Part shown: positions 7,485 through 58,200 of the stretch, piece after piece | How the letters are laid out: each line of letters begins with the position of its first letter | Numbering within the stretch: the first letter of the stretch is position 1 | Source of the DNA: Candidatus Rhodoluna planktonica | Lineage (GTDB): Bacteria; Actinomycetota; Actinomycetes; Actinomycetales; Microbacteriaceae | Length of the DNA: 64,000 bases | NCBI RefSeq assembly: GCF_001854225.1 | Contig: NZ_CP015208.1 | Location: forward strand, 1,240,001 to 1,304,000 | Direction of reading: 5' to 3' | The notes under the pieces: model-generated | The model's input: only the letters and a program-made list of their open reading frames with translations | Databases searched by the model: none | What the model was told of the DNA's origin: nothing | Made by a program: the position numbers and the translations under genes

Positions 7485-10361
7485 TTACTTTACGGTAACG
7501 GTGCGAGTTGCAACAGTCTTACCGGCAACCTTGACAACCACTGACTTTGCGCCAGCTGAGAAGCCACGGAAGGTGTACCACTGTGCAGCTGCTGATGGTA
7601 GGCGAGGGGTGTAAACGCGACCGTTGATGGTCACAGTTACAGCCTTGCCTGCAGCGTTACGTACGGTGACGTTAACCGAACCAGTGGTTCCAGCAACAGT
7701 TGCGCTAACAACTGGTGCAGATTCAAGAACATTGACGTTTGCACTCAGTTCGTTTGCGAACTTAGTCTCGTCCCACTTTGTTGCAGTGTCGTCTGTAGTT
7801 ACAGCAGCAACCGCAAGTTGGTCAGTTCCAGCTGCGCCGAATGTGTAGTCAGCAGCACCAAGAGTTGCAGTGATTGAACCTGGGCCAGCAATGTCCTTGA
7901 TTGAACGCACAAAGACAGTTGCTAGACCGTTCTTGTCGAAGTTCTTGGTCACTGCATTAGCTGAACTGTTGATTTCAACAGATCCGTTACCTTGGAATGA
8001 AACACCGTATGGTGCGGCTGCGGACTTAGTCGAGACTGGGTTGCCCCACTTGTCAGTTAGCTTTGCAGTAACTGCGTAGGTAGTGTTCTTAACCATGTAT
8101 GAAGGTAGCGACCATGAGAAAGCTAGGTTTGACCCTGACAAGTTCTCTGGGAGATACGTCTTCAAAGTTGTCGAAGCTGACTTGCCACCCGAAGTAACTG
8201 TTACAGCCACACCAGTTGTGTTCACAACGTGTGAGTAGAGTGTCACACTGTAGTTACCACCAGCATCAGCGTTTAGAGTGATGCTGTCCTGGTACCAGGT
8301 GCTTTCGCCGGTCTTCTTGAACTGGAGGCCCTTGCCCGCGACAGTAACAACTGCGCCAGGAACGCCTACACTTGCAGCGTCAACCACTGTGCCAGCCAAA
8401 GCAACGTTTCCATCGTTAGGGCCGACAACAGTTGCACTTTCAGCGCCTGTAACAAAGTCGTCGTAAGTGATGTTAGTTGTGATTGTTGCTGGGGCGTTTA
8501 CAGATGCTACTGCTGCAGGGTTGAACAATGTCAAGACCTTGGTTGCTAGAACAGTACCCGGAACCGAGGCGGTGCCTTTGTAAACATTTGCAGTGATGTT
8601 GTCCGAACCGCCAGTTGTCACATAGTTGGTGAACGTCAATGTTGCAGTTCCATCCGCACCAACCACTACATCTTTGTCAAGCTTTGAAGTGTTTGAGGCT
8701 TGTACTCGGATGAAGAGAGAGTCGGCACCAGACTTAGCAGTCGCCTGTGAATAGGTGTCTTTAACTGTGAACTTTACAGTGACGGTGGATCCTGAAAGAA
8801 CATCATTGTCTGCAGACAAAGTGCTTACGGCTGCAGCAGTATAGGTGCCAGTGTAAGCGGTAGATGCAACCTTGGTGCCGTCACTCTTAATCACGTAGAA
8901 GGTGACCTTAAAGGCTTCGCCCTCTAGCGCGGTAGCTGAAGTTACAGTAACTGAGAACTGCCCCTTCGCATCGGTCAGACCCGACACGATTGAAGCGCGA
9001 TTAACCTTGGCAATCGAGCCGTTAGCGCCACTGACTGTGTAGTTGCCTGTTGCTGAAAGGTATGAAGTTGCCTGAACAACGGCAAAAACGCGGACGCTCG
9101 ACACTGCTTTATCATTCGCAATTGTGGTCTCAGTCACCTGAGATTTGAATGTAAATGACTTTGTCGCTGGGCGTAATTCAATAGAACCATCAGTGTGGGC
9201 TGTTTGAATTGCGTTTGCTGAATCCGTGACAGTGGCCTTAATTTTCACAACGGTTGCATCAGAGGTACCCGCAACTGGAGTGTATGAAACGCCAGTAAAG
9301 GTAGTCGCAGCTGCATCATTGTAGGCAACATTCAAACTAATTGCAGTGTCTAGAGTGCTGGTTTCTGTCGCTGTGAAATACAAGCGGCCGGCAGCATCTA
9401 GAGATGAAAAGCCCGCAGGGGCAGCATAAGTCTCAGTTAGGGCTGTCGAACCGTTTTTCAATACAATCTTCGACACATCTACCTGGTCTAGGTTGATGTT
9501 AGAAGGTAGTTCTAGCGATCCCGCAATGACTGCACCAGCCTCGTTAAGCAGTGCTGTGTTGTCTGCCTTCACAAAATTCTCGACGCGAGGAATAATTGTT
9601 ACCGCTTTTGGATCGACAAAAGTGATTTGCTGGGCATCTGAGGCATAGGCGGCATCTACTGTTGAGTAGTCTGCAGTTGCCTCTGTTTCAACCCACGAGC
9701 GGATTGTGATTGAAGCGCCACCATCTCCAAGTTCAAACGCATCCGACGGACCCCATGTGTTGGTGCCAGAAGTGATTGCGCCAGAAATACGGCCTGAGTC
9801 ATTGTTCGTTGTCTTGTCGTCAATAGGTTGTACGACAAGTTCAGCAGCTCTAGACGCAGAGGAGATCGACCTGATTACAAGTTTGGTAATTCCAAACTTC
9901 GCAAAATCTACCTCGAATTCGCCGCGAACTTCATCGGTATCGCCTGCAGCGGTACCAAAGCCACTGGTCGTTCCATGGTCTTCAACCACTACGACTGCGA
10001 CATCATCGTCAGTCGAAGAAGTGTCCAAAGAGTCCATATCTACTCTTGCACCTAGAGAGTTAAAACCCTCAAGAGTCACTGATTGGCCATTAGTTAGCGA
10101 ACCATCAGCCACCTTGAAGTAGAGATTTGTTTTGTCAGGGTTAGAGATTTCGTAGGCCAAAGTCGATGGGTTGACCAGACCTGAAACAGTTGTTTTTACA
10201 GAAAATGAATCTGTTGTAAGCGAACCGTACTTTGTACCTGCAGTTGGCGCCAAGGTCACATCGCCAGCTGCTGCGTTAGCAGCAACTGAGGTTAGACCTG
10301 TTACACCTAGAGCTAGAACAGTACCGAACGCCAAACCCTTTTTGATTAGGTTCTTAGACAT
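7485..10361 (-). CDS. Large exported surface (S-layer-like) protein 1
   Basis: 958 residues. A Sec signal peptide (MSKNLIKKGLAFGTVLALGV..., cleavage near SVAANAA, about residue 31) is followed by Thr/Ser/Val/Ala-rich beta domains with few charged residues and no Cys. Ig-like modules are suggested by segments such as VKFTVKDTYSQATAKSG and VTAKLTDKWGNPVS. The last ~65 residues match the C-terminus of the second surface protein (11432-13975), ending in the identical VVVKVAGKTVATRTVTVK. The shared tail may be the wall- or self-assembly module. Size, composition, leader hairpin and strong terminator fit an abundant surface-layer protein; the S-layer role is inference. Codon choice looks more optimised than in neighbouring genes. 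Confidence 0.75.
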   Translation of the reverse strand: MSKNLIKKGLAFGTVLALGVTGLTSVAANAAAGDVTLAPTAGTKYGSLTTDSFSVKTTVSGLVNPSTLAYEISNPDKTNLYFKVADGSLTNGQSVTLEGFNSLGARVDMDSLDTSSTDDDVAVVVVEDHGTTSGFGTAAGDTDEVRGEFEVDFAKFGITKLVIRSISSASRAAELVVQPIDDKTTNNDSGRISGAITSGTNTWGPSDAFELGDGGASITIRSWVETEATADYSTVDAAYASDAQQITFVDPKAVTIIPRVENFVKADNTALLNEAGAVIAGSLELPSNINLDQVDVSKIVLKNGSTALTETYAAPAGFSSLDAAGRLYFTATETSTLDTAISLNVAYNDAAATTFTGVSYTPVAGTSDATVVKIKATVTDSANAIQTAHTDGSIELRPATKSFTFKSQVTETTIANDKAVSSVRVFAVVQATSYLSATGNYTVSGANGSIAKVNRASIVSGLTDAKGQFSVTVTSATALEGEAFKVTFYVIKSDGTKVASTAYTGTYTAAAVSTLSADNDVLSGSTVTVKFTVKDTYSQATAKSGADSLFIRVQASNTSKLDKDVVVGADGTATLTFTNYVTTGGSDNITANVYKGTASVPGTVLATKVLTLFNPAAVASVNAPATITTNITYDDFVTGAESATVVGPNDGNVALAGTVVDAASVGVPGAVVTVAGKGLQFKKTGESTWYQDSITLNADAGGNYSVTLYSHVVNTTGVAVTVTSGGKSASTTLKTYLPENLSGSNLAFSWSLPSYMVKNTTYAVTAKLTDKWGNPVSTKSAAAPYGVSFQGNGSVEINSSANAVTKNFDKNGLATVFVRSIKDIAGPGSITATLGAADYTFGAAGTDQLAVAAVTTDDTATKWDETKFANELSANVNVLESAPVVSATVAGTTGSVNVTVRNAAGKAVTVTINGRVYTPRLPSAAAQWYTFRGFSAGAKSVVVKVAGKTVATRTVTVK

Positions 10362-10364
10362 TTA

Positions 10365-10415
10365 GTCTCTTTCTTTTCTTGGTTTATTAGCCATACAGTC
10401 ACGTGAAATGTATGG
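10365..10415 (-). promoter_or_regulatory. Conserved 5' leader with hairpin (surface protein 1)
   Basis: The purine-rich ribosome-binding stretch complementary to 10365-10386 is identical over 22 bases to 13979-14000. Next to it 10391-10415 forms a hairpin (CCATACA / TGTATGG) around a CACGTGA-type loop. The homologous leader at 14004-14028 has different stem bases that still pair. Confidence 0.7.
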
Positions 10416-10474
10416 ATTGTGAAGCCCCGCATTTCGATCACCAAGCAGACCGAACACAAGGGTTCACAACCTAG

Positions 10475-10506
10475 ATAACTAGAGGCCGAGAAGAACATCA
10501 CGGTTC
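10475..10506 (-). promoter_or_regulatory. Putative shared promoter/activator element (surface protein 1)
   Basis: On the minus strand GAACCG (10501-10506) is followed by exactly 20 bases and then AGTTAT (10475-10480), 114 bases from the start codon. The same arrangement occurs before surface protein 2 and the sigma gene. Two more AACCGT copies lie upstream (10543-10548 and 10572-10577). Confidence 0.5.
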
Positions 10507-10611
10507 AGAGTCGATGTCTAAACGGACATAGATGAAACGTGAACGGTTACGCATGGACATACGTCGGATGTACGGTTTACCGTAGAGACAAGTTCTACGT
10601 TCGGGGGATAC

Positions 10612-11352
10612 ATGAACTCAATCGCTCTAACCGAAACGAAAATGTCGGTTCTTGAAGACTTGCTTGACTCGTTATTGAAAAGCGCAACACCAAGCGAATT
10701 TTGTCGAGCACTGGTGCACAGCGACTACATGGGTCAAGAAACCCAAGGTGCTCACCTGTTCACACTCGACCAACAATCACAGTTGGCCAATGCCGCCAGT
10801 TATGGTTTGCCGTGTGGCAACGGCGAGGCCATCTCCATCTGGGATAACAACCCGTTGGGCGAAGCCATCCGCTCTAAATCAATGACCTTTGATAGCAGCC
10901 ACGAGTTTGCCTTTGGTAAAGGTTTGGCCTGCATCCCGCTGCTGCGCGAATCGATGCCGCTAGGTTGCCTGGCTTTGGTTATCGACAACAGCGCTAAACA
11001 TGTTCCGTTTGAAGAAGAGCTTGTGCCGCTAGTTGGCAAAATTGCCGCCTATTTGGTGAACCAAAACTCGGGTTTCAGACACCAATCACGTCGCGACTCG
11101 GCAGGCAGCCCAGACGATCTAACCCAGCGCCAAATTCGCATCATCGAATTTATGGCTGAAGGCTATGTGAATGCAGAAATCGCGCGCGAGCTTTTGGTTA
11201 GCGAATCAACTGTTCGCCAAGAAACCGTGCGCATCTATCGCGCACTCGATGTGCCAAACCGCACCGAGGCAGCAAAGAAAGCCAGGGCACTTGGTCTGAT
11301 TAAGCGCCCCCCCCCCCCGCGATTGAGCGAGCAGTCTAAGCAGTTGGCTTAA
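10612..11352 (+). CDS. GAF-like/LuxR-type transcription regulator
   Basis: 246 residues. The N-terminal ~145 residues look like a GAF-type sensor fold (HLFTLDQQSQLANAASYG... ending SMPLGCLALVIDN). A linker leads to a LuxR-type helix-turn-helix (about 172-228: LTQRQIRIIEFMAEG, VNAEIARELLVSESTVRQE). It is not a two-component receiver. A GGGGGA ribosome site precedes ATG 10612. The gene is divergent from surface-protein gene 1 and convergent with surface-protein gene 2, so control of one or both is plausible but inferred. A run of 12 C at 11307-11318 encodes the prolines near the C-terminus; slippage there would alter only the last dozen residues. Confidence 0.8.
   Translation: MNSIALTETKMSVLEDLLDSLLKSATPSEFCRALVHSDYMGQETQGAHLFTLDQQSQLANAASYGLPCGNGEAISIWDNNPLGEAIRSKSMTFDSSHEFAFGKGLACIPLLRESMPLGCLALVIDNSAKHVPFEEELVPLVGKIAAYLVNQNSGFRHQSRRDSAGSPDDLTQRQIRIIEFMAEGYVNAEIARELLVSESTVRQETVRIYRALDVPNRTEAAKKARALGLIKRPPPPRLSEQSKQLA
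11307..11318 (+). repeat. Homopolymer of 12 C inside the regulator gene
   Basis: An uninterrupted run of 12 cytosines encodes the Pro stretch after GLIKR in the GAF-LuxR regulator. Such tracts are prone to replication slippage and to sequencing error. Confidence 0.9.
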
Positions 11353-11355
11353 ACG

Positions 11356-11387
11356 AAAATCCCCCCGGCCGAAGCCGGAGGGATTTT
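11356..11387. terminator. Bidirectional terminator between convergent genes
   Basis: AAAATCCC-C-CCGGC (11356-11369) pairs with GCCGG-A-GGGATTTT (11374-11387), one mismatch, loop CGAA. It has A/T runs on both sides and serves the regulator gene (plus) and surface-protein gene 2 (minus). Confidence 0.85.
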
Positions 11388-11431
11388 CTGCTTCTACCGC
11401 TAGGGGGCTAGCGGATAGATCTTTGCGTTAC

Positions 11432-13975
11432 TTACTTTACGGTAACGGTGCGAGTTGCAACAGTCTTACCTGCAACCTTGACAACCACAGTCTTCTTACC
11501 TGCGGTGGTCTTAGCTGAGAAAGGCTGAACATCAGCAGCAGCGCGACGAGCGATTACTACCTTGCCGTTTACAGTGATTACAACACCCTGACCAGCAGCG
11601 TTGCGAACAGTTACGTTCACAGCCTTGGTCACACCAGCAACAGCAGCTGCTACTGGTAGTGAACCAATCTTGATGGTCTTGGTTGCAACTACGTCGTCGT
11701 TGTTTGACGCCTCTGCAAGGGTACCGTTAGCACCTGCGTAGGTTAGCTTGATGCTTGCAGAACCTAGTTCATTCGCACCTAGTAGGTAACGGAAGGTTAG
11801 GGTTCCGTCAGCCTCGGTAGTTGCAGGCAATGAACCAATTAGTAGACCTGGGCCGTCGTAAACAACAGATACCTTAGAGGCGTCTGCGTCAACAGCGTTA
11901 CCAAACTTGTCAACTAGCTTGGCAACAACCACAAGGGTCTTACCTGCACCGATTGACGAAGGAGTGGTCTCCCATGACCATGAAGCACCTGAGGTGCTTG
12001 CGTTGGCGAAGGTCACCTTGGTGGTCTTAACGGTGGTGCCGGCAGTTACAGTTACAGTCTTCTCACCAGTTGAGGTGCTGAATACCGAGAATGCAACGTC
12101 ACCGTTTGATGCTGCACCAAGTACTACTGCTGAGTCCTTGAAGTAGCTTCCGCCAACCTTGATCATCAGACCAGGAGCCGAAACAGTGACCTTGCCACCG
12201 ACGTTAGCTGAAGCAGTGATTGCAACAGCGTTCGAGTGGGTAGGAGCAGTTCCGCCGACAACAGCGTTGTAGGTGGTAAGTGCCTGGTCAGTAATTGAAC
12301 CTGAGTAAGTTGCTGATGGGTCAGTGTCGATGGTGTCAGCTGATGCAGTAACGGTTAGGTTGGTTACGATCTGCTCGCTACCGTTGGTTACATCAAGTTG
12401 TGACCAGTTAAGAGTGGTCGCATTCTGAGTCTGTACCTCAGCAGTTACAACAACTGGTGAAGTTGCATCATCGCTCTTGTCAGTAACGGTGATGGTTCCA
12501 GTTCCGTTAGTGATGGTCGCGATGTGGGTGTCAACAGTTGCATCGCCAGCTGGGGTGGTCGCGTAAATACGAGCAGCGCCAGAGATAGGTGCACCGTAGT
12601 TGTCACGAACGTAGAAGGAAAGCGATGCAGCTGCGCCTGAAGCGATTGAACGCTGTCCAGCATCTGCAAAGTCATCTGCGCGAACAATGGTGTAGGCAGC
12701 GTTAGCCCATAGAAGCTCTAGGCCCTGTGCACCAGTTGCAAGGTTACCGGTGTTGGTGTCTAGTGCGACGCCCTCAGAGGTAGCGGTGAAGGTTAGCTTG
12801 TCGCCGGCAGTACCAAGCTGGTTGGTAACTGCTAGCTTGACCTGACCATTTGCGTCAGTTACGACGTTTAGGTTCACGGTCTGTCCAACGGCCGCCGCTG
12901 CGGTGCCATTGATCTTTACCAATGCGGTTGCAGGGGTGGTGATCGCAGTAGATGCAACAGTTACAACGGCAGGGATGCCTGCTGCAACTGCTTTGCCATC
13001 CGACTTCTTAAGAGTAAGAACGACCTCGGCTGACTTTACCCCAGTGCGAACCTTGTCCTGCTTCAGGGTTGCGGCCTGGTTTGCAGGAGCAATTACTTCA
13101 GTGTCGGTGGTGTCAGTTACTGCAGCAGTGATGCTTGAAACAGTTACTGCAGCAACGCTCTGAGAAGCAACGTTACCAACAGCAGTGCCATCAACCTTAA
13201 GTTGTGCGGTGTAGGTGGTGCCGCCAGCCACAGTGGTGGTTCCAGTTGCTGACCACTTTGCGTCTGCAAATGATGCGTTGCCATCCTGAGCGTTGCCACC
13301 AGCAAAGTCAACTGTCACTGCGTTGTTTGCAAGCATTGCTGAGTTTAGTTCTGGGGTAATTACAGAAGATGCGGCCAATGAGGCTGCGCCAGCTACAGGA
13401 GCGGTAAGAGTAGTAACTGCGGTTAGGTCTGCAACCTTGTGGAAGGTAACAGTGCGGGTTGGCGACGAGTACTCGGTGGTGTCGATTACACCATCGTTGT
13501 CAAGGTCAAGCCATGCGGTTACGTTCGCCGAAACAGTAGCGGTACCCGAAACGGTTAGCTTAACTGCAGCGGTTTCGGTGTAAGCAGCAATCTGCTCACC
13601 GTCAACAGCAGGGGTGCTGCGTGCAGGTAGCTTATCGGTTACGAATGATGCGTTGGCTGTAGAGCTGTTTGCAGTAGCGAATGTGTACGATGCTCCGCCG
13701 CCAGTTAGGTCAGAACCAATTGCAGCAGATACAACCTTGTCGCCAGTCTGGTCGATCTTGAAGCGTAGGTCACCAAGCTGCGAGGTTGCAACTGCGCCAC
13801 CGAATTCGGCCTTTAGCACGAATGCGCCAGCCAAGGTGGTCAGGTACGAGGTACCGGTGTTTGGAGTCAAGGCAACGTTGTCAACCGCGAACGCCGGAGC
13901 GCCAGTGATAACCGATGAGCCCAGAGCAACCAATGCACCAAATGCCACGCCCTTACGGGTTAGGTTTTTAGACAT
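11432..13975 (-). CDS. Large exported surface (S-layer-like) protein 2
   Basis: 847 residues from ATG 13975, chosen because it gives MSKNLTRKGVAFGALVALGS, matching surface protein 1, and is preceded by the same purine-rich leader. An upstream in-frame ATG at 14053 lies inside the conserved hairpin leader and is rejected. Signal peptide cleavage is likely near APAFA (about residue 30). The body is Thr/Ala/Val-rich beta structure with Ig-like pieces (LSFYVRDNYGAPISGA, VVAKLVDKFGNAVDAD) and no Cys. The final ~65 residues share the repeat-like tail of surface protein 1, including an identical 18-residue end. Paralogue of 7485-10361, but the middle has diverged strongly. Probable surface-layer or wall-associated protein. 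Confidence 0.75.
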   Translation of the reverse strand: MSKNLTRKGVAFGALVALGSSVITGAPAFAVDNVALTPNTGTSYLTTLAGAFVLKAEFGGAVATSQLGDLRFKIDQTGDKVVSAAIGSDLTGGGASYTFATANSSTANASFVTDKLPARSTPAVDGEQIAAYTETAAVKLTVSGTATVSANVTAWLDLDNDGVIDTTEYSSPTRTVTFHKVADLTAVTTLTAPVAGAASLAASSVITPELNSAMLANNAVTVDFAGGNAQDGNASFADAKWSATGTTTVAGGTTYTAQLKVDGTAVGNVASQSVAAVTVSSITAAVTDTTDTEVIAPANQAATLKQDKVRTGVKSAEVVLTLKKSDGKAVAAGIPAVVTVASTAITTPATALVKINGTAAAAVGQTVNLNVVTDANGQVKLAVTNQLGTAGDKLTFTATSEGVALDTNTGNLATGAQGLELLWANAAYTIVRADDFADAGQRSIASGAAASLSFYVRDNYGAPISGAARIYATTPAGDATVDTHIATITNGTGTITVTDKSDDATSPVVVTAEVQTQNATTLNWSQLDVTNGSEQIVTNLTVTASADTIDTDPSATYSGSITDQALTTYNAVVGGTAPTHSNAVAITASANVGGKVTVSAPGLMIKVGGSYFKDSAVVLGAASNGDVAFSVFSTSTGEKTVTVTAGTTVKTTKVTFANASTSGASWSWETTPSSIGAGKTLVVVAKLVDKFGNAVDADASKVSVVYDGPGLLIGSLPATTEADGTLTFRYLLGANELGSASIKLTYAGANGTLAEASNNDDVVATKTIKIGSLPVAAAVAGVTKAVNVTVRNAAGQGVVITVNGKVVIARRAAADVQPFSAKTTAGKKTVVVKVAGKTVATRTVTVK

Positions 13976-13978
13976 TAT

Positions 13979-14028
13979 GTCTCTTTCTTTTCTTGGTTTA
14001 AATCCATGTATCCACGTGAAATACATGG
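13979..14028 (-). promoter_or_regulatory. Conserved 5' leader with hairpin (surface protein 2)
   Basis: 13979-14000 is identical to 10365-10386. 14004-14028 forms a hairpin (CCATGTAT / ATACATGG) with a CACGTGA-type loop. Stem changes relative to the first leader are compensated, pointing to a conserved RNA structure. Confidence 0.7.
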
Positions 14029-14086
14029 CTAAATAAGCCCTTTCCGGGAGCAACCAAGCAGAACCCGGGCAAGACTTACATACAGA

Positions 14087-14118
14087 CTAACGGACAATTG
14101 TCCGGTCTATTACGGTTT
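14087..14118 (-). promoter_or_regulatory. Putative shared promoter/activator element plus palindrome (surface protein 2)
   Basis: On the minus strand AAACCG (14113-14118), 20 bases, then CGTTAG (14087-14092), 112 bases from the start codon. The perfect 14-base palindrome CGGACAATTGTCCG (14091-14104) sits between the blocks and overlaps the second one, as an operator would. Confidence 0.55.
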
Positions 14119-14148
14119 GTCTGGTTAAAACTTTTATGTCGAATAGTG

Positions 14149-14174
14149 AAAACCCCTGATCTCTCAGGGGTTTT
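14149..14174 (-). terminator. Terminator after the sigma-factor gene
   Basis: AAAACCCCTGA (14149-14159) pairs perfectly with TCAGGGGTTTT (14164-14174) around a 4-base loop. It insulates the sigma gene from the surface-protein-2 promoter region. Confidence 0.85.
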
Positions 14175-14194
14175 TCTTAGAGGGCCAGAAAAGT

Positions 14195-15613
14195 TTATTT
14201 ATACACGAATGTCAGTGATGAGCCGACAACCTGGGCAACATTAGGGTCAACAATCAACTCAAGACGAATTTCTCCATTTGAAATTTCTGAATCTGTATAA
14301 ACGTCGCCAGTTTTAGCATCCTGAACGTGACTTGCTTCACCAAAATAAACGTAGTGATCTAAACCCTTCGAATCGCGTGCGACGACATAGTCCGATTTGC
14401 GGCCGTAGACGTTGTAAGTCTTCTTTTCAAGCTGAATTGTGAGCGTCAAGTTTTGGAATGGATGTAGGTCATCCGCGTCAAAAATAAAGTCGGCGATCAA
14501 GCCATTTGATGACTCAACAACATAAGGCAGTGCATCGAAGCTATTGCCATTTTTAGCAAGCACTAAATAATCAGACTGAACGCTGTTATCGAAAACCTGG
14601 ACAAGATCTTTGACATCAAACGGGCTCGCGCTGGGCGAAGGTGCAGAATCTGGAATTGCGACCACGTTTGAAACTGATGCAGCAATGGTCTGGATAACCG
14701 GCTGAGTGGCATCGTTGGTGGTTGCCTCGGTGGTTTCGGTCGCTGCGGCTGAATTGCTGTTTGAAGAATCGGCTGGCGCTGCGCTTTGCGAAGCTGCAGG
14801 GGCCGGAGCCTCAGCGATGTTGTTGGTGTCATTGTTTCGGGTGAAGGTGAGCACCGAACCTAATCCGAGCATCAAGAACAAAACAAAAACCATGGCCTTA
14901 GCGCCAACATTCTTGGCATCGGCGGCAGCCTTGCGGGCCGCAACCGAGAGAATCTGGCTGAGAGTCATGCCGGCAGTTTCAACCTCGCCGATAAGTGCTT
15001 TCTTGAAGGCGGCGCGAGCACGGTGCAGAAGCTGCAAGGTAGCGTTTTCGCTAAGGCCAACCTGCTCAGCAATTTCACGAGTCGACTTCTCTTCATACAT
15101 GCTGGCCAACAGCACCTCGCGGTGACGAGGGTTCAGTTTGCTCAGGGCCAAACGCACGATGGCGGCATCTTCGGCCTGCTCGACAATAGAGCCAACCTCG
15201 GGGTCGCTTGATTCAAATTCAGGATGCGCATCGATGTCACTGATTTGGGCACGGCTTTGCGCGCGAATCACATCGAGACACAACAGGCGCACTTTCCACT
15301 TCAGGAAGCGCAGCACGCCAAGCTCGCTGTCGAGCTCGGGCAAAGTGACCATTAGATAAAGGAACGCGTCTTGAACAACCTCATCAACCTGGCTTGGGTT
15401 TCTGAGGAAACGTCGAGCGTGACGCTCGAGGTGTGGGCGAAAGCGAGTGTAGATGTTGGCGAAGTCTTGGGCGCTCCACTCTTTGAGAACTGCGCGTGGT
15501 TCGGCCGATGCGGCCTGAACTTCTGATTCGCCAAACTCAAGATCTGATTCTTCATCGAGCAACGCCTCGAGTTCGGCATCAGTTGGGATGCGCGGTTCGA
15601 TTGGCTCGGTCAT
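14195..15613 (-). CDS. ECF-type sigma factor fused to a membrane helix and outside domain
   Basis: 472 residues. Residues ~45-125 carry sigma region 2 (DFANIYTRFRPHLERHARRF, VDEVVQDAFLYLM). Residues ~160-215 carry region 4 (LNPRHREVLLASMYEEKSTREIAEQVG, then SENATLQLLHRARAAFKKAL in the same helix-turn-helix). One transmembrane helix follows (about 240-260, MVFVLFLMLGLGSVL), then a Ser/Ala/Thr-rich linker (about 265-320) and a ~140-residue beta domain that should lie outside the membrane. Normal ECF factors are ~180-200 residues and soluble, with the membrane sensor on a separate anti-sigma; here both are in one chain. It could be held at the membrane until proteolysis or sense wall state directly. 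Its own upstream region matches the elements before both surface-protein genes. Confidence 0.85.
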   Translation of the reverse strand: MTEPIEPRIPTDAELEALLDEESDLEFGESEVQAASAEPRAVLKEWSAQDFANIYTRFRPHLERHARRFLRNPSQVDEVVQDAFLYLMVTLPELDSELGVLRFLKWKVRLLCLDVIRAQSRAQISDIDAHPEFESSDPEVGSIVEQAEDAAIVRLALSKLNPRHREVLLASMYEEKSTREIAEQVGLSENATLQLLHRARAAFKKALIGEVETAGMTLSQILSVAARKAAADAKNVGAKAMVFVLFLMLGLGSVLTFTRNNDTNNIAEAPAPAASQSAAPADSSNSNSAAATETTEATTNDATQPVIQTIAASVSNVVAIPDSAPSPSASPFDVKDLVQVFDNSVQSDYLVLAKNGNSFDALPYVVESSNGLIADFIFDADDLHPFQNLTLTIQLEKKTYNVYGRKSDYVVARDSKGLDHYVYFGEASHVQDAKTGDVYTDSEISNGEIRLELIVDPNVAQVVGSSLTFVYK

Positions 15614-15623
15614 CAGAATCCTT

Positions 15624-15650
15624 TAGGTTTTGTAGGTTTTGTAGGTTTTG
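15624..15650. repeat. 9-base tandem repeat in the sigma gene leader
   Basis: Three exact copies of TAGGTTTTG lie 10-37 bases before the sigma start codon, next to its AAAGGAT ribosome site. Copy-number change would alter leader spacing and possibly translation. Confidence 0.8.
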
Positions 15651-15726
15651 GGCGTCGCTGGTTGGTGCTGGGGTTTGTTGTTGGAGGATGACGGCCGACC
15701 GGGCCTGTTCCCCACTAACAACTTTA

Positions 15727-15758
15727 TATACGTCGGCGAGCGCCGTCTATTACGGTTT
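15727..15758 (-). promoter_or_regulatory. Putative shared promoter/activator element (sigma gene)
   Basis: On the minus strand AAACCG (15753-15758), exactly 20 bases, then CGTATA (15727-15732), 114 bases from the sigma start. The 14 bases GTCTATTACGGTTT (15745-15758) are identical to 14105-14118. An inverted repeat CGGCG/CGCCG (15734-15745) lies between the blocks. Confidence 0.55.
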
Positions 15759-15829
15759 TCTGTCGTTATCCACAGATTTTGTGTACGGCTAGGGTTTGGG
15801 GTTATTGCTAGGTCATTCTGGTTTTGTGG

Positions 15830-15866
15830 TTGACATAGTTTCGAAGTTGTACGCACAATGTACGCA
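15830..15866 (+). promoter_or_regulatory. Toxin-antitoxin promoter with direct-repeat operator
   Basis: TTGACA (15830-15835), an 18-base gap and CACAAT (15854-15859) form a plausible promoter. TGTACGCA occurs twice (15848-15855 and 15859-15866), 11 bases apart, overlapping the -10 region: one helical turn, as expected for cooperative ribbon-helix-helix binding. Confidence 0.6.
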
Positions 15867-15876
15867 AGGAGTGAAA

Positions 15877-16152
15877 ATGGCAGAATCACAAACAAAAGGT
15901 GAGCGCATCTACACCAGGGTGACGCCACTAGAAAAACGCATGATTGCTTCCGCCGCCAAGGCGCAGCATCAAGACGTGTCGGCTTTCATGCTTGAAAGTG
16001 CTCTGCGCGAAGCTACCAACACCTTGCTTGATCAACGAATTTTTTGGGCCGATGCTGATGCCTTCGCGGCGCTCGAAGAAGATTTGGCACGGCCGGCACA
16101 TACACCTGCTGGCTTGATTGAGTTGCTAAGTCGAAAAGCCCCTTGGGAGTAA
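15877..16152 (+). CDS. TacA-like (DUF1778) ribbon-helix-helix antitoxin
   Basis: 91 residues from ATG 15877, chosen for the AAGGAG ribosome site six bases upstream; an in-frame upstream ATG has no such site. The N-terminal part (RIYTRVTPLEKRMIASAAKAQ, given here as its first and last motifs RIYTRVT and AAKAQ) is a ribbon-helix-helix fold, followed by DVSAFMLESALREA. The C-terminus (FWADADAFAALEEDL...SRKAPWE) is the usual toxin-wrapping tail of DUF1778 antitoxins. It overlaps the downstream acetyltransferase by ten bases. It should neutralise the toxin and repress the operon through the direct repeats upstream. Confidence 0.88.
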   Translation: MAESQTKGERIYTRVTPLEKRMIASAAKAQHQDVSAFMLESALREATNTLLDQRIFWADADAFAALEEDLARPAHTPAGLIELLSRKAPWE

Positions 16153-16652
16153 GTCTCAAACAACCTCGGCTGCTGAACGCAACCGATCAGGTTGATGGTT
16201 TTGACTCAGGCTCAGAACTAATTGACGCATGGTTTCACAAATACTCGTTAATTGCGCAATCGGCAGGCACTGCAAAAACTTTCGTAGTTTGCACAAGCGA
16301 GGGCGAAATTGCCGGTTTTTACAGCATCGCTACCGGGCAAATTAACCACGCCGAAGCAACCGAACGGGTTTGCAAAGGGGTTGGGCAGCACTCCATCCCG
16401 GTAATTGTCTTAGCCCGACTGGCAGTTGATTTGCGTTTTCAGGGCTTCGGGGTTGGCGCAGGGTTACTGAAAGATTGTGCGATTCGTGTGGGGAACATTC
16501 GCGAACAGGTTGGGGTGCGAGCACTAGTAACACACGCCAAAGACGAAGACGCGGCCAAGTTCTATAGTCGGTTCGGCTTTGTTGAGTCACCAATTGCTGA
16601 ACGCCAAATGATGATTCTGATGAAAGACCTTCGTGGGCTGATTCGGAGTTAA
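16143..16652 (+). CDS. GNAT acetyltransferase toxin (TacT/AtaT-like)
   Basis: 169 residues starting at TTG 16143, overlapping the antitoxin end. GNAT fold with the acetyl-CoA loop FQGFGVGAGLL after ARLAVDLR, and AKFYSRFGF near the end carrying the usual Tyr. Family members acetylate aminoacyl-tRNA and stop translation when free of antitoxin. The antitoxin gene directly before it, the overlap and the length all match TacAT-type modules. The tRNA specificity is not readable from sequence. Confidence 0.88.
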   Translation: MGVSLKQPRLLNATDQVDGFDSGSELIDAWFHKYSLIAQSAGTAKTFVVCTSEGEIAGFYSIATGQINHAEATERVCKGVGQHSIPVIVLARLAVDLRFQGFGVGAGLLKDCAIRVGNIREQVGVRALVTHAKDEDAAKFYSRFGFVESPIAERQMMILMKDLRGLIRS

Positions 16653-16723: not shown

Positions 16724-16864
16724 ATGTTCGTCATGCACCGTAATAAAAAAGGTGTGTCGGCGCTATTTAGTAATGTAGTAACCGCAGTTGAAACCAAGCC
16801 TTCTGCAATCACTACACAAAGCCTCGGGACTGATGAATTCGCAGCCTCGGGGCTTTTTGTTTAA
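16724..16864 (+). other. Small ORF or small-RNA candidate ending in a terminator
   Basis: In the gap between the toxin gene and the DUF2256 gene (16653-16909) a 46-codon frame (ATG 16724 to TAA 16864) spans a strong terminator hairpin. No ribosome site or known domain is seen, and a frame running through a terminator is odd for a gene. A short transcript ending at the hairpin, possibly a small RNA, is the better guess. Confidence 0.25.
16819..16855 (+). terminator. Rho-independent terminator
   Basis: AAGCCTCGGG (16819-16828) pairs with CTCGGGGCTT (16846-16855) using two G-U pairs, loop of 17 bases, followed by TTTGTTT. It may end the toxin-antitoxin transcript or a separate small RNA. Confidence 0.65.
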
Positions 16865-17143: not shown

Positions 17144-18454
17144 TTGACCAAAATTCGGGTGGCTTTTCTCACCTTCTATTACGAAGCGTGGGATGCACTG
17201 GCGAGCGTGCACTCGCTGATGCGAGCCGACGAAAGGTTTGAAGTTGCAGTGTTCGCCATCCCCCGTCGATTAACAGGCGATTTGCGCTATGACGATGCTT
17301 CTGGGGCACACACCTTTTTTACGCAGGCCGGCATCGAACACACGGTGCTGAATTTTGAAGACTCGAATGATGGGCTAAAGGTGCTGCGCGACTGGGCACC
17401 CGACTACACCTTTATCAACTACCCCTGGCAGCGCAACTATCAACCCGCCTATCGCGTTGACAGTCTGGTTTCGTTTACTCGCGTGGCCTATGTGCCCTAC
17501 TATTCGCTGCCGCTTACCAACGAGCCGGCCGATGGCAATGGGGTTGCCTCGCATCTTTACACCCAGCGCTCGCATCAGCTAGCTTCGCTGATTTTCACCC
17601 AGGATGAATTCGTGCGCGCAGCGTATGCCAAGACATCGCGCGGCAATAAGCGCGTGCACTTTGTTGGTTCGCCCAAAATTGATGCGCTGCTGGCTGCCGC
17701 CGACGGTCAGGCTGGGCAAGTTGGTCACGCTGGGCATGCTGGCCACACAAAGGGTGAGCGCTTGCAGTTAGTTTGGGCGCCGCACCACAGCTATTCTCCA
17801 CATTGGCTAAACTTTGGTGTTTTTGCCCAGATGCACATAAAAATGTTGGCTTGGGCACGCGATCATCAAGAGCTAGATGTTGTCATGCGGCCGCATCCGT
17901 TTTTATTTGGCACCCTGGTTGATCGCGGGGTGCTAACCGCCACCGAATTGGCCGAATGGCAAACTGCCTGGGCCGAATTGCCCAACACCAGCATCGATAG
18001 CGAATCTTCGGCTGGGCAAATTTTGGCACGGGCCGATTTGCTACTCACCGACGGAATTTCGTTCTTGGCCGAATACCCCTTGGCAACCGGAAAACCTGCT
18101 GTATTCATCGAAAACTCGGGGCACTGGCCGCTTTCACCGATAGGTGAAATAGCCGCTGAGGCAAATGTGAGGTTACGCAACTTTGATGAGTTTGTTGCCG
18201 GGTTTGATTACATCCTCGAGGCTGGTCTGCCCGATCGCAGCGCAGAAATTGCCGCGTTGCGCGAAGCGGCGATGCCGTTTGGCGCGGGCGGATCAGCTCC
18301 AAAAATTGTTGAAATTGTGGCTGCCGATTTTGAGCGCGGTGCGGGCATTGATGCGGCCGGAAACGGTCTTGGTCCTTCGCCGTTGGTAGACCCAAGCTTG
18401 GTTACCGAAACTGCGTGGGAGCGCCAACCCGGGCGCGAACCAATCAACGATTAG
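17144..18454 (+). CDS. CDP-glycerol glycerophosphotransferase-like protein
   Basis: 436 residues starting at TTG 17144 with AGGAG eight bases upstream. The first ~170 residues form a GT-B-type N-domain (VAFLTFYYEAWDALASVHSL). The C-domain carries LVWAPHHSYSPH, VVMRPHPFLFG and LLTDGISFLAEYP, the His/Asp pattern of the TagF/CDP-glycerol glycerophosphotransferase family that builds teichoic-acid-like polymers. No membrane segment. A His/Gly/Ala-rich loop (about residues 189-205) breaks the domain junction and is encoded by degenerate 9-base repeats. It probably transfers glycerophosphate or a related unit to a surface glycan; the acceptor is unknown. Confidence 0.8.
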   Translation: MTKIRVAFLTFYYEAWDALASVHSLMRADERFEVAVFAIPRRLTGDLRYDDASGAHTFFTQAGIEHTVLNFEDSNDGLKVLRDWAPDYTFINYPWQRNYQPAYRVDSLVSFTRVAYVPYYSLPLTNEPADGNGVASHLYTQRSHQLASLIFTQDEFVRAAYAKTSRGNKRVHFVGSPKIDALLAAADGQAGQVGHAGHAGHTKGERLQLVWAPHHSYSPHWLNFGVFAQMHIKMLAWARDHQELDVVMRPHPFLFGTLVDRGVLTATELAEWQTAWAELPNTSIDSESSAGQILARADLLLTDGISFLAEYPLATGKPAVFIENSGHWPLSPIGEIAAEANVRLRNFDEFVAGFDYILEAGLPDRSAEIAALREAAMPFGAGGSAPKIVEIVAADFERGAGIDAAGNGLGPSPLVDPSLVTETAWERQPGREPIND

Positions 18455-53475: not shown

Positions 53476-55203
53476 ATGAAGAAGTTTGTTTTTGTTTCTG
53501 CCGCGCTCATTGGCTCGTTGGTCCTCGGTGGTGCGGCAATGGCTGCGCCGGCGACATATGGTGCCAAACCCAGCGCTACCCCTTCGGCAAACAGCAAAAA
53601 ACCGGTCACGACGCCAAAAACTAATGGCACTGATGCGAATACCACAACCGGCACTACCGCAACCGAGTCAACAACCTCTAAGCCCGGGGCATCTGGCAAC
53701 AGCAATGCTGGGGGCAAGACTGCCGAAAACAACAACACCAACGACACCAAGACCAACGGAAACTCAGGCAAAACCCCAAGCTCCACTGGCACAAAGACAA
53801 CGGGCACCACAAAAACAAACGGAGCAAAACCCGCTGTCGATACGGGTGTGCGTTCAAACTATATTGTTCGTTTCGCTGAAGGCACCGATGTAGACAGCGA
53901 ATCAACCGCGATCGCCTCATTGAAGACCACAGTTTCAAAGAAGTTCAAAACTGTAATCCGCGGCGCTCTGGTGCGCATGACAGAGAAACAGAAAGAAAAT
54001 GTTGCAAAACGCGCGAATGTGCTCTCCATCGTGCCCGACGGCGACGTCTCAACATCAGAAACACAGAGTTCGCCAAGTTGGGGCCTCGACCGAATCGACC
54101 AGATCGATATGCCGCTCGATGCCTCATTTAGTTACGCAGAGACTGGCGTCGGTGTAACCGCATACGTTGTCGACACTGGTGTTCTAACCACTCACAGCGA
54201 ATTCACTGGGCGCACAGCAGCTGGCTTTAGTGCCATCAGCGACGGCAATGGCACAATCGACTGCAACGGGCACGGAACCCACGTGGCTTCAACTATCGGC
54301 GGCACAATCTACGGTGTTGCTAAAGGTGTAACCATCGCCCCCGTTCGTGTCTTAGGGTGCGACGGTTCCGGAACCATTTCAGGCGTAATTGCTGGCCTCG
54401 ACTGGATTGCAGCCAACCATGACAGCAGCAAAGCCGCAGTAGTCAACATGAGTTTGGGCGGTGGCGCTAACAGCACACTTGACGCGGCCGTAAACAATCT
54501 CATCGACCGCGGCATCACAGTTGTAGTTGCAGCGGGCAATAACACTGCAGATGCCTGTACCGCCTCACCAGCGCGAGTGCCGAGAGCAATTACAGTGGCG
54601 GCTAGCTCGGCAACCGACGCTTTTGCCAGCTACAGCAACTTTGGGTCTTGCGTAGACATAATCGCTCCTGGAAGCAGCATCACAGGTGCCTGGTTCACCT
54701 CTACTTCGGCAACCGCTACCATCTCGGGCACTTCAATGGCTACCCCGCATGTCGCCGGAATTGTGGCTCGCATGCAAACTCTAGGTGCCCAACTTCCAGC
54801 AAAAATTAGCGAGAGCCTTGCTGCAGTTAGCGTGGCCGACACCATTTCAGCGGTTCCTACCGGAACTGCAAACGCGTTCATCTACGGAAACCCAAGCGGC
54901 GTGAGCATCCCGGCTGCCGCAAAACCATTGGCCGCAATTTCGGTTTCGGCAACTGCGGGCAGCCGATCGGCAACCGCAACTTGGGTGCTGGCCGACAACA
55001 CCGCTGGCCCGCTAACCTCACAAACCGTAAAGCTTTGGGCTGGCAATCAATTGGTTAGAACCTTCACCGTTTCGGCAACAGAAACCTCGCTGCAGGTAAC
55101 TAAATTGCGCACCAATACCTCATACAGCTTTAGCGTGGTTGCCAATAATGCCGGTGGCTTTGCTGAATCAGCTCGCAGCAATGCGGTGCGACCAAGTCGC
55201 TAG
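53476..55203 (+). CDS. Secreted subtilisin-like serine protease (S8 family)
   Basis: 575 residues. Signal peptide (cleavage near AMAAP), then a ~100-residue Thr/Asn/Lys-rich low-complexity stretch, an I9-type inhibitor prodomain (about 128-200, NYIVRFAEG), and a proteinase-K-like S8 domain with the full triad: D233 (YVVDTGV), H266 (NGHGTHVAS) and S420 ([12 protein letters not shown]). A C-terminal fibronectin-III domain (about 485-575) follows. No obvious ribosome site precedes ATG 53476. It could process or turn over the large surface proteins encoded on either side; that is inference. Confidence 0.92.
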
Positions 55204-55271: not shown

Positions 55272-58200
55272 CTATTTAGCCTTGCCCTTCTTGTCTCTTC
55301 CCATTAGCAGGTTCACCACTCCGAAGGCGGCGGCAATTGCAACACCAATCCAGATTTCATAGGTCACACTAACCCAGCCAATGATCGCCGCTGGCAGGGC
55401 GCTGGCAAAGGCAGTCACAAGCAATACAGTGCGGCGGACGTTACCAACTGGGCGTCTAATTAGTCGAGCAACCAGTGTGAGCAGCCCCAAGATCAAGGCA
55501 AACCAAACTGTCCACCAAGCCACTTCTCGCTCGAGTGGAATCTCTCGGATAACCGTTTGTGACCCGCCAGATTGCGAAGCCCCGCTGATGATGACTGTTG
55601 CCTGGGTGCCGTCGTCAAATTTTTGAATTTCGTTGACAGCTTCTTCACTCAACACAATTTCGCCGTTCGCATCGGTTGATACACCCTCAAGTGAGCGAAT
55701 TCCGACCAGACGAATAGCGTGACCGCCAGCTTCAAGCAGGTCGATAGGCAACGAACCAGAGAGTTGGGCTTTACCAAACTTGTCGACTACGGCCTCACCA
55801 AAAATAATTGGCTGAGTGGTTACGGTTAGGTAGACCAAGGTGCCCGGCAAATAGGTGTCGGCTGAAGCATCAACTTTGATCCATTTGGCGGCGTCTGCCA
55901 CGTTGAGGTCTTTTAGTGAAATTGGCTTGGCCAAGCCCGAGGCAGCAAACAACTCAATTTCAGGTTGCTCGATTTCAGTGCTGAAAATTTGAGTGCTGGC
56001 TGGCGGAGTGGTCTGCACAACCTTGTCGATTGAAGCGAAGTTAGTGCGCTGACGAGCAGTCGACTCTTCGATGGCTGCAGCAATTGCCACCGGATCAGCG
56101 GCTTGGCCCGGAGTTACCACAAACTGGCCGGCAATTCTTGAACCGATTACCTCAATACGAATACCCGCGCTCGGAGCGAAACCGCTGATTTTCTCAGCAG
56201 CCACAGCAGCAACAGTTCTGGTCGCCGCACTGAGCACATCTTTGGTGCCATCCGCTTTTTCGGTAGTTACCACAGTGGTTTGAGTTTCAGGAATCTGAAC
56301 TTTGGTTACTTTATCGGCCGCGTTGTTTGCTGGTGCTGCGGGTGATTGAGATGGTGCCGGTGTGGCCGCGCTGTTGTTTCGTTGCGGAGCAGAGGTTGGC
56401 GCGACAACATTTTCAACAATCTTCGAAAGCTGGTTTAGCAAACCAGTGATGTTTTTCACCAGTGGGGCATCCGGCGTTGCCGTTGGCGCGGGTATTGCCG
56501 ACTGCTGCGGCTTCGGAGTGACTCGAGGCGCAGGTGAGGTAGTGTTCTCAGGCGTAGGCAATGCCACCGGTGCGTTTGCTGTAACCGACGGACGCGGAGT
56601 TGGTCTAACCACTGGTCGGCTTGGAGTCGGTGTCGGCGAAGCGGCGGTTGGACTTGGTGTCGGCGTTGGCTGAACCACCGGGTTGTTGTTGCCGTTATTG
56701 CCACCATTGTTGCCGTTGTTGCCACCATTATTGTTCACCGCTGCTGCGGCAGTTTTAAAAGTGCGCACGGCACCGTTGGCAGTGGTACCAGTGGTTGGGG
56801 TTGCGATTACTCGATAGTAGTAATCGGTCGAAGGAGTTAATCCACTTGCAGCAACCGATACGGCCTGGGTTGAGTTCGGCGAAATTGAACCATTCGTTAC
56901 ACTTCCAAGCACTCCGGTCAAGCAGTTACCGAGGGTATTCGAGTTCGTGTTACCGGTGGTCGAAATACAGAAGGTGACGGTTACCGCATGTGTTCTCGAA
57001 ACTACCTGCCCTGGCAGGGTTGCCGTGGTGTCTGTTAGCGTGCTCACAGATTGAGTAGTTGCACTTGGTGGAGAGTCGGTGGTGAAACTAAGAACTACAC
57101 CGCTAACTGCAGAACCGCCTGAGGTTGGGGTGGCGATTACACGGAAATAGTAAGTGGTTCCTGGGTTAAGCCCAGTCACTAAAACTTCAGGTGATGCTGG
57201 CGAGTTTGCACCCGCATTTCCATTCACTACAACTCCAACGGTTCCTACATTGCAGGAACCAATGGTGTTTGCCGCAGTGTTGCCAGTACTTGAAAGACAG
57301 AAGGTTCCGGTTGCACCAGTTGCACCGCCGTCTATCTGACTGTTCAAGGTTGCTGATTCTTCACCAACATTTGAAGCTGGATTAGTTTGTGCAGTCGGCG
57401 CACCCAGAGCGTTAGTCGTGAAGGTCAGAACTGACCCGTACACTTGAGAACCGGTTGCTGGGTTGATGATAATTCTGAAGAAGTACTGAGTGCTCGGAGT
57501 CAAACCCGAAACTTCAACCGTGTGATTGTTGCTTGCTCCGGCCCCTGGTGTGGCATTTGAAACCGGCGCAAAAGTGCCCTGATCGCAGTTTCCTATCGTG
57601 TTCGAGGCTGTATTGCCTGTCAGCGATAAGCAAAAACTAACCGTGCCGCCATAAGTGCCTGTGGTTGTAGAGCCGTTGAGGTGAGCATCGTTCGCAGTCA
57701 CCGGTGAAGCTGCGGTTGTACTGGCAGTCGCCAAGATGACTGGCGTAGTGAAGGAAAGAACTTCACCTTGGAAAGTCTGATTGGTCGAAGTTATGACTTT
57801 TACTCTGAAGTAATAGGTTGTATTGCTAGCCAACCCTGTTATGGCCTGACTTGGTGTTGCCGAGGCGTTGGCATTCAGGCTGCCGGCAGAAATTGCCGAA
57901 GCAGTACCCGAGCCACAGGTACCAATTGTGTCAGCAACAGTATCACCAGTTGTCGAGAGGCAGAAACTTATTGTGTTCAGTGAATAGGTTCCTGAAGTAA
58001 TGCTTGAGTTCAACGTTGCACCGGTTCCGGATACAGAACTTGCCGCAACGGTAACCGGAGTCGGGTCGATAATTGTCAACGTCGTAAAACTGAGCACGTT
58101 GCCCTCAACAACAGCACCGCTGCTCGGGGTAGCAATTACTCGGAAATAGTAGGTGGTGTTGTCGCTAAGACCGGTGACTGAAACCGCGACATTCGAATTC

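Follow-up and report, generated by a model that had tools for sequence, protein, structure and literature searches.

SCO4117 (ECF52) of Streptomyces coelicolor, a fusion of an actinobacterial extracytoplasmic function (ECF) sigma factor with a membrane segment and an outer domain, has been reported to regulate its own gene (PMC5826349, PMC8999054). A protein of apparently the same layout is encoded in the DNA analyzed here, a stretch of 64,000 nucleotides from Candidatus Rhodoluna planktonica (bases 1240001-1304000 of a one-contig genome of 1,424,506 bases; hereafter the window), beside the genes of two surface proteins, A and B, and the three genes share an upstream two-block element. In the published descriptions on which we drew, ECF52 has a zinc-finger domain after the sigma domains as well as a carbohydrate-binding domain, whereas the sigma protein of the window lacks zinc-finger cysteines (its single cysteine lies inside the sigma domain) and has no Pfam match for a carbohydrate-binding domain. 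The target motif given for SCO4117 is CSGYN-17-SRHA, compared with CCGTAAY-N16-CGTWWA in this locus, and its regulon is developmental, in contrast to the compact target set found beside the sigma gene here (PMC5826349, PMC8999054). The protein works like the fused ECF groups and was not assigned to ECF52, because a defining feature of that group is missing. For the membrane release of fused sigma factors, proteolysis is the usual proposal.

The RNA elements of the locus also have described counterparts. The preQ1 and SAM-II riboswitches are pseudoknotted cis-regulatory leaders in which a loop pairs with the tail beside the ribosome site, and the leader RNA of genes A and B would resemble them in its proposed loop-tail pairing; unlike them, it has no Rfam match, contains two hairpins, and finds its partner strand also in a separate RNA. 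The sigma-E-dependent RNAs RybB and MicA of Salmonella repress targets that sigma-E itself does not transcribe, whereas here the sigma factor would drive both the target and a small RNA, whose seed has the sequence of one strand in the leader of that target. The likeness would lie in an envelope sigma factor driving small RNAs that act at surface-protein mRNAs, as described for RybB and MicA (PMC1804206). FoxJ of Fusobacterium nucleatum is reported as a sigma-E-dependent small RNA able to activate mRNAs, by a route proposed to involve intra-operonic terminators, in place of the leader lock proposed here (PMC11005410). No earlier description of the leader, the small RNA or the regulon was found in the open-licence literature searched.

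A first-pass annotation of this DNA had interpreted the two-block element as the mark of an autoregulated surface regulon. The regulon signal is true, the accompanying caution about spacing does not hold, and the link to gene A is weaker than had been proposed. The locus is also larger than that annotation saw, as it includes a leader RNA, a fourth promoter with a small RNA, and a LuxR-type gene with palindromes. Taken as a whole, a tethered sigma factor acting together with the leader, the small RNA and a LuxR switch is, on balance, the explanation that we favor.

The three sites were recovered in the sequence on the minus strand at the coordinates first given. Their second blocks precede the start codons (10361, 13975 and 15613) by 114, 112 and 114 bases, and the 14 bases AAACCGTAATAGAC are indeed identical between the sites at 14087 and 15727. 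The near-equal distances are partly coincidence, since A and B share an RNA leader and the distance at the sigma gene varies among relatives. The register originally chosen, AAACCG-N20, was rejected: relatives keep CCGTAAY, N16 and CGTWWA. The earlier suspicion that the spacing was too long for an ECF promoter, and that one block might be an activator site, arose from this register error. The true unit is CGTAAY-N16-CGT, a spacing that is ordinary for ECF promoters. Extended to CGTAAY-N16-CGTWWA, it shows the AAC-type first block, spacer of about 16-17 bases and CGT-type second block of ECF-type target promoters.

Within the genome, the specificity of the element is confined to its exact forms. 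With up to three mismatches allowed, RAACCGTAATAGACSG is exact only at 14103 and 15743 and has one more match, with three mismatches (shuffled controls gave a mean of 0.97 matches, and three were reached in 9 of 100 shuffles). Exact copies of the shared core AACCGTAATAGACNG occur in the whole genome only at the sigma-gene and gene-B sites, with five others at two mismatches (reversed controls, 7 and 13). CCGTAAYN16CGTWWA has one exact match, at the sigma gene, and three with one mismatch, comprising gene B and two other places. At up to two mismatches there are 74 matches in total, against 102 and 126 in the reversed controls. Looser matches are no more numerous than in the controls and were regarded as noise, so that a wide regulon is unsupported.

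Conservation was studied in the window's own genus (g1) and in a second genus (g13; both are tool codes), with genomes denoted by G-numbers and loci by L-numbers. Orthologues of the sigma protein were detected in 9 of 249 genomes of the family, 18 of 67 of g1 and 18 of 22 of g13, the window's own genome being counted in the first two. The 36 sigma-upstream regions scored include G285 twice and exclude L009, L023 and L037, which are partial or broken; in G315 (L037, L039, L107) the sigma gene is interrupted by a stop. All 13 positions of CCGTAAY-N16-CGTWWA are matched in 23 regions, at least 12 in 28 and at least 11 in 30, compared with none, 0.08% and 1.2% of 3600 shuffles, although these figures flatter the consensus, which was derived from the same regions. 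Among 24 gene-B upstream regions (350 bases each; L104, whose next gene has no leader, was excluded) scored against the sigma consensus, at least 10 positions are matched in all 24, at least 11 in 22, at least 12 in 12, and 13 in one; the corresponding values for shuffled regions are 17%, 1.75%, 0.08% and zero. For L093_8 and L099_8, start codons placed too early shift the regions scored in the promoter test.

In 11 of the 22 g13 genomes the strict pattern occurs, once each and always directly before the sigma match, and the reversed control gives none; CGTAAC-N16-CGTATA stands upstream of most sigma genes of this genus. The 17 strict matches in g1, distributed over 12 of 67 genomes, comprise 12 before sigma, one before B (G292) and four elsewhere. 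In most g13 genomes only 9 to 11 bases separate the second block of the sigma promoter from the ATG, and the sigma mRNA may therefore be leaderless there. The element is thus kept before sigma and B in two genera, which gives good support to the autoregulation proposed by the first-pass annotation and to control of gene B. The promoters of sigma and B are very likely real, and we infer that the sigma factor encoded here is the one that reads them. The features of the locus are summarized in the following table.

Features of the sigma-factor locus, with coordinates relative to the window
Feature	Coordinates	Strand	Basis
ECF-type sigma factor: one hydrophobic segment, C-terminal beta-rich domain	14195..15613	-	Pfam, TIGR02937, model
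Sigma-gene promoter, CCGTAAT-N16-CGTATA	15727..15755	-	exact match; kept before orthologues
Gene-B promoter, CCGTAAT-N16-CGTTAG	14087..14115	-	1 mismatch; kept in relatives
Likely gene-A promoter, CCGTGAT-N16-AGTTAT, weak	10475..10503	-	place and form kept in relatives
Candidate-small-RNA promoter, CCGTAAT-N16-CGCTAT	16738..16766	+	same arrangement in 5 relatives
Surface-protein gene B	11432..13975	-	translation; secretion-signal-like start; sub-threshold Big_1 match
Surface-protein gene A	7485..10361	-	translation; resembles B at both ends
Structured leader RNA, gene B	13977..14081	-	model R1 E 1.1e-5; R2 1.8e-9; covariation
Structured leader RNA, gene A	10363..10477	-	model R1 E 0.0085; R2 5.4e-6
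Candidate small RNA: hairpin, loop UUGAAACCAAGCCUU, then terminator-like hairpin with U-run	16770..16862	+	promoter, fold, seed
LuxR-family regulator gene, between A and B	10612..11352	+	Pfam GerE 44.5 bits (cut-off 23.5); homologues in cassettes
Palindrome copy GACCGGAC, 7/8, in promoter-B spacer	14100..14107	.	sequence
Inverted repeat TGTC-N6-GACA upstream of promoter A	10515..10528	.	eroded form of relatives' second site

The sigma protein has Pfam matches to Sigma70_r2 and r4_2 above cut-off and reaches 84 bits with TIGR02937 (cut-off 42.9). Its hydrophobic run, read by eye, covers approximately residues 240-257, and the predicted structure places a helix at 218-255. Mean pLDDT over the whole model is 67.9, with block values of 81-93 for the beta-rich domain (residues 361-472) and a value of about 90 over residues 361-470. 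Among the best 50 of 892 Foldseek matches, five have E < 0.001, all of them ECF sigma factors, and none identifies the fold of the outer domain.

The mRNAs of A and B begin with similar structured 5′ leaders of about 105 nt. A set of 33 leaders was compiled from 35 matches by removing three that are not leaders (L074:2605, L097:1207 and L102:14286) and adding the window's own leader A by hand. Throughout this set AACCAAG, beside the ribosome site, is invariant, and a near-invariant loop, GCUUGGUU, is complementary to it. The sequence UGCUUGGUUG is likewise near-invariant (A replaces G in three leaders, and leader A of the window has G at the eighth base). When the loop and tail strands were held open, most of the 33 leaders folded into two hairpins of unlike sequence; those of G286, G285, G270 and G253 gave less distinct folds, the cut having been displaced by a second CUUGGU.

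RNAalifold on a MAFFT alignment recovered only the invariant loop-tail pairing, as the stems are too diverged to be aligned by sequence, and a covariance model was therefore built from a single genus. Trained on 10 g13 leaders, it finds 32 of the 33 leaders and gives no further match in the window or in the remaining sources. In the model-fitted alignment 26 of 26 pairs are changed on both sides, and 85.7% of cells are paired, compared with 49.6% after shuffling and 37-43% when the structure is slid; the fit itself leans towards the structure, a bias that the slid control answers for the most part. At gathering score, Rfam (release 15) has no match in the window and only two tRNAs in eight related loci, and on this ground a known riboswitch was rejected as the identity of the leader. 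The leader is almost certainly a structured RNA and, judged by this alignment, represents a new covarying family.

Its distribution follows that of the sigma factor. The 80 genomes compared (58 of g1, 21 of g13 and one other) remained after 10 of 90, less complete and without a sigma match, had been excluded; the set leans to sigma carriers, as G320 and G328, still less complete but with sigma, were retained. The sigma gene is present in 37 of these genomes and the leader in 29, all 29 with sigma, while none of the 43 genomes without sigma has a leader. Sigma occurs without the leader in G269, G296, G316, G321, G325, G326, G328 and G081, and in G296 and G328 the contig ends exactly at the expected leader place. 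In an even sample of 396 genomes from the order, covering 110 genera and searched with stricter filters, the leader was found in the window's own genome only.

The promoter at 16738 was found by the promoter scan and not by a search for the seed, being one of 58 window matches, at up to three mismatches, to a looser pattern based on sites A and B (54 were expected). With two mismatches to the first consensus it is lost in the noise; it scores 13/13 once the second block is widened, a change made after gene B had been seen. The widened scan gives 31 matches of at least 12 in 40 stretches, five of them without a clear target. The hairpins of the candidate small RNA of about 90 nt that follows the promoter have a z of -2.9, and its terminator-like hairpin is missing from the list produced by a simple terminator scan. 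The seed of this RNA, AACCAAGC, is the complement of the 8-base loop in the leader.

Promoter, hairpin and seed occur together in six g1 genomes (that of the window, G010, G154, G092, G266 and G269). In these six sequences, at least three of which are close kin, both partners vary in 7 of the 14 pairs, and 93% of cells are paired (79% after shuffling). The only new match below 1e-4 to a model of the six is an independent, full-length one in G322 of g13 (1.0e-5), whose contig also carries a LuxR-type gene. A pattern combining seed and terminator picked up G299 and G302 in addition, while five further matches (G264, another place in G154, G295, G304 and G305) were taken as chance. The small RNA is thus found in 9 of the 80 genomes, 9/9 with sigma and 8/9 with the leader, and a sigma-type promoter sequence precedes it in six. 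It is probably a real RNA, and the complementarity leaves its pairing with the leader an evenly balanced proposition.

The LuxR-type gene is linked to a palindrome, GTCCGGAC, which is found with 7 or 8 of 8 bases in the promoter-B spacer of 13 of 24 loci; in seven of these 13 it is preceded, at a distance of about 21 bases, by another copy with 6 or 7 of 8. A LuxR-family gene, its presence entered by hand for each locus from the homology results, lies in the cassette at 12 of the 13 loci with the palindrome and at none of the 11 without it (p 1e-5, ignoring kinship). The exception is G318, which has the palindrome without the gene; its close sister G317 has the gene. Two of the twelve palindrome-associated genes encode receiver-type regulators. 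A receiver-domain regulator takes the LuxR position in two genomes of g1 whose surface protein is short (L078 8154-8867, minus strand; L082 8351-9043, plus strand). Before gene A, 11 of 13 regions have a copy with 7 or 8 of 8 bases at a distance of 45 bases from the first block, upstream of it, and 9 of 13 have a half-site 21 bases further on; in the window itself these copies are eroded. Since the site overlaps the polymerase position at B and lies upstream of it at A, opposite regulatory effects of the LuxR-type protein are suggested, and a reciprocal switch between A and B has about an even chance of being correct. Close to its end, the LuxR-type gene contains 12 consecutive C (11307-11318), a possible slippage tract.

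In the circuit that we propose, the membrane-tethered ECF sigma factor would recognize CCGTAAY-N16-CGTWWA, with CGYTAY-like second blocks at its targets, and activate its own gene and the neighboring gene B, probably also gene A and, in some members of the clade, the small RNA. The apical loop of the leader, GCUUGGUU, would pair with AACCAAG just before the ribosome site and hide this site. The apical loop of the small RNA, AACCAAGC, could then dock on the leader loop in place of its internal partner, and this would most likely free the ribosome site in a coherent feed-forward arrangement. The LuxR-type protein would bind GTCCGGAC, repressing B, whose promoter the site overlaps, and activating A, where the sites lie 45 and 24 bases upstream of the first block; this would allow the cell to swap one surface protein for the other.

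Several observations weigh against this circuit, and they are considered here along with the alternatives on which they bear. In g1, the reversed control of the exact pattern also gives 17 matches, so that only the positions of matches count as support. Those positions make it very improbable that the element belongs to a regulator or sigma factor other than the tethered one encoded here: it stands before the sigma gene in both genera, and its strict form lies nowhere else in the 11 g13 genomes having it. At gene A the question is more evenly balanced. Site A scores 10/13, which 17% of shuffled upstream regions reach, and is alone at chance level. Gene-A regions of nine loci score 9 to 11, two of them reaching 11 (2.1% of shuffles) and the others staying at chance level. 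Five other A-class genes of g1 keep CCGTGAY or CCGTAAG, N16, and AGTTAY or CGTTGA at the same place, while 6 of 7 in g13 have TAGTAAC-N17-GGTTAC. The case for a gene-A promoter is a weak one that rests on its place and on the form kept in relatives, and of the surface regulon first proposed it is gene B, with its conserved promoter, that is well supported. Departing from the consensus, promoter A may need an activator or another sigma factor. Transcription of A by another sigma factor with the LuxR-type protein as activator, rather than by the tethered one, would account for the drift of the A-type sites, their low scores and the palindromes at an activator-like place. We rate it somewhat below an even chance, as the leader, the distance and the GTAAC/GTTA cores are kept at A, and all leader genomes have sigma, even where such genes lie away from it. 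The link between palindrome and LuxR-type gene is itself less firm when followed on the sigma tree, where three of four independent pairs agree and none disagrees (p 0.25, not significant), and G266, G292 and G311 have no palindrome yet possess more distant LuxR homologues elsewhere.

For the RNA arm of the proposed circuit, the hardly varying loop and tail strands mean that covariation cannot prove their pairing; the single-sequence fold of L076 forms it unconstrained. The leader might mainly be a stabilizer, its hairpins and loop-tail pairing protecting an abundant message without any switching. Strong hairpins at the 5′ end in 33 of 33 leaders folded agree with this idea, which we nevertheless consider unlikely, as stabilizing hairpins do not require a loop and a tail next to the ribosome site to be invariant. 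The small RNA was not found in 21 of the 29 leader genomes, and its promoter was not seen in G299 and G302 and is doubtful in G322. The energy of the seed-loop duplex is ordinary (350 of 2000 shuffles do as well) and was dropped as proof of pairing because it does not discriminate. Of the 21 g13 genomes searched, 19 also have the same seed loop upstream of tRNA-Trp, as 23-base matches, and three of these are without a sigma match (G323, G324 and G327). In L152, L153, L157-L166 and L168-L170 the hairpin has the loop UUGAAACCAAGCC or a near form at about position 1507; the sequence was read in 15 rows, and ARAGORN confirmed the tRNA in three of three tried. A like hairpin, CCUGAAACCAAGCCAGG, precedes a gene that we take to be rsmH-like in G010, G305 and G267 of g1 (L167, L171 and L175). 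The tRNA-Trp hairpin is perhaps a second source of the same seed. Alternatively, AAACCAAG in the leader tail and in these hairpin loops could be the motif of a common RNA-binding factor, with no action in trans and another role for the small RNA. The occurrences beside tRNA-Trp and the rsmH-like gene speak for such a factor, but the exact complement of the leader loop and the sigma promoter in six of the nine small-RNA genomes would be left unexplained, and we think this reading doubtful. If the small RNA does act on the leader, it could instead be a brake that docks on the loop and lowers synthesis or speeds mRNA decay in an incoherent feed-forward arrangement, much as the sigma-E-dependent RybB and MicA are reported to speed the decay of outer-membrane protein mRNAs (PMC1804206). 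The seed, however, copies the leader's own tail strand and would fit competition for the lock better than an added block; release is slightly favored, and the brake is the less probable of the two, if a credible one.

Only tentatively can these elements be joined into one compact circuit, in which the tethered sigma factor, the LuxR-type switch and a target-copying small RNA set which surface protein is made and how much of it, the small RNA being produced with the message and unlocking its leader by replacing the lock strand. If true, such a replacement would be a new way to activate translation. The locus provides a new RNA family with covarying stems and a candidate for the actinobacterial equivalent of the small-RNA arm of sigma-E; for the tethered sigma factors, a class of which little is known, it provides an exact promoter. 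Streamlined aquatic bacteria are reported to have fewer genes for transcriptional regulation, sigma factors included (PMC12422013); in contrast, this locus packs transcriptional and RNA control, perhaps with switching, around surface proteins. Genome editing has been reported for the freshwater actinobacterium Rhodoluna lacicola (PMC11577799), and related predictions may be testable if an editable isolate has the cassette.

The A and B proteins share 37% identity by blastp over the N-terminus, and that of gene A has no Pfam match; from their secreted-like starts we infer that both are located at, or coat, the cell surface. The order sigma, B, LuxR-type gene (on the other strand) and A is found in the window, in at least five more g1 stretches and in at least three of g13, whereas other genomes have B and lack A as well as the LuxR-type gene. 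The G+C content of the window is 50-56%. Adjoining the cassette, a single open reading frame of 10,946 codons (18927-51767, minus strand) with C-terminal fibronectin type III (fn3) matches encodes a giant surface protein. Further along are a subtilase with an fn3 domain (53476-55203, plus strand) and a protein of 2135 residues with purple-acid-phosphatase N-terminal and fn3 domains (55272-61679, minus strand). Between the sigma gene and the small RNA, a TacA-like antitoxin gene is followed by a GNAT acetyltransferase gene (15796-16652, plus strand), likely a toxin-antitoxin pair. The gene after the small RNA (17144-18454, plus strand) shows weak likeness, below cut-off, to the UDP-GlcNAc epimerase and glycerophosphotransferase families, and several relatives in g1 have a like gene next to that of sigma or of the small RNA.

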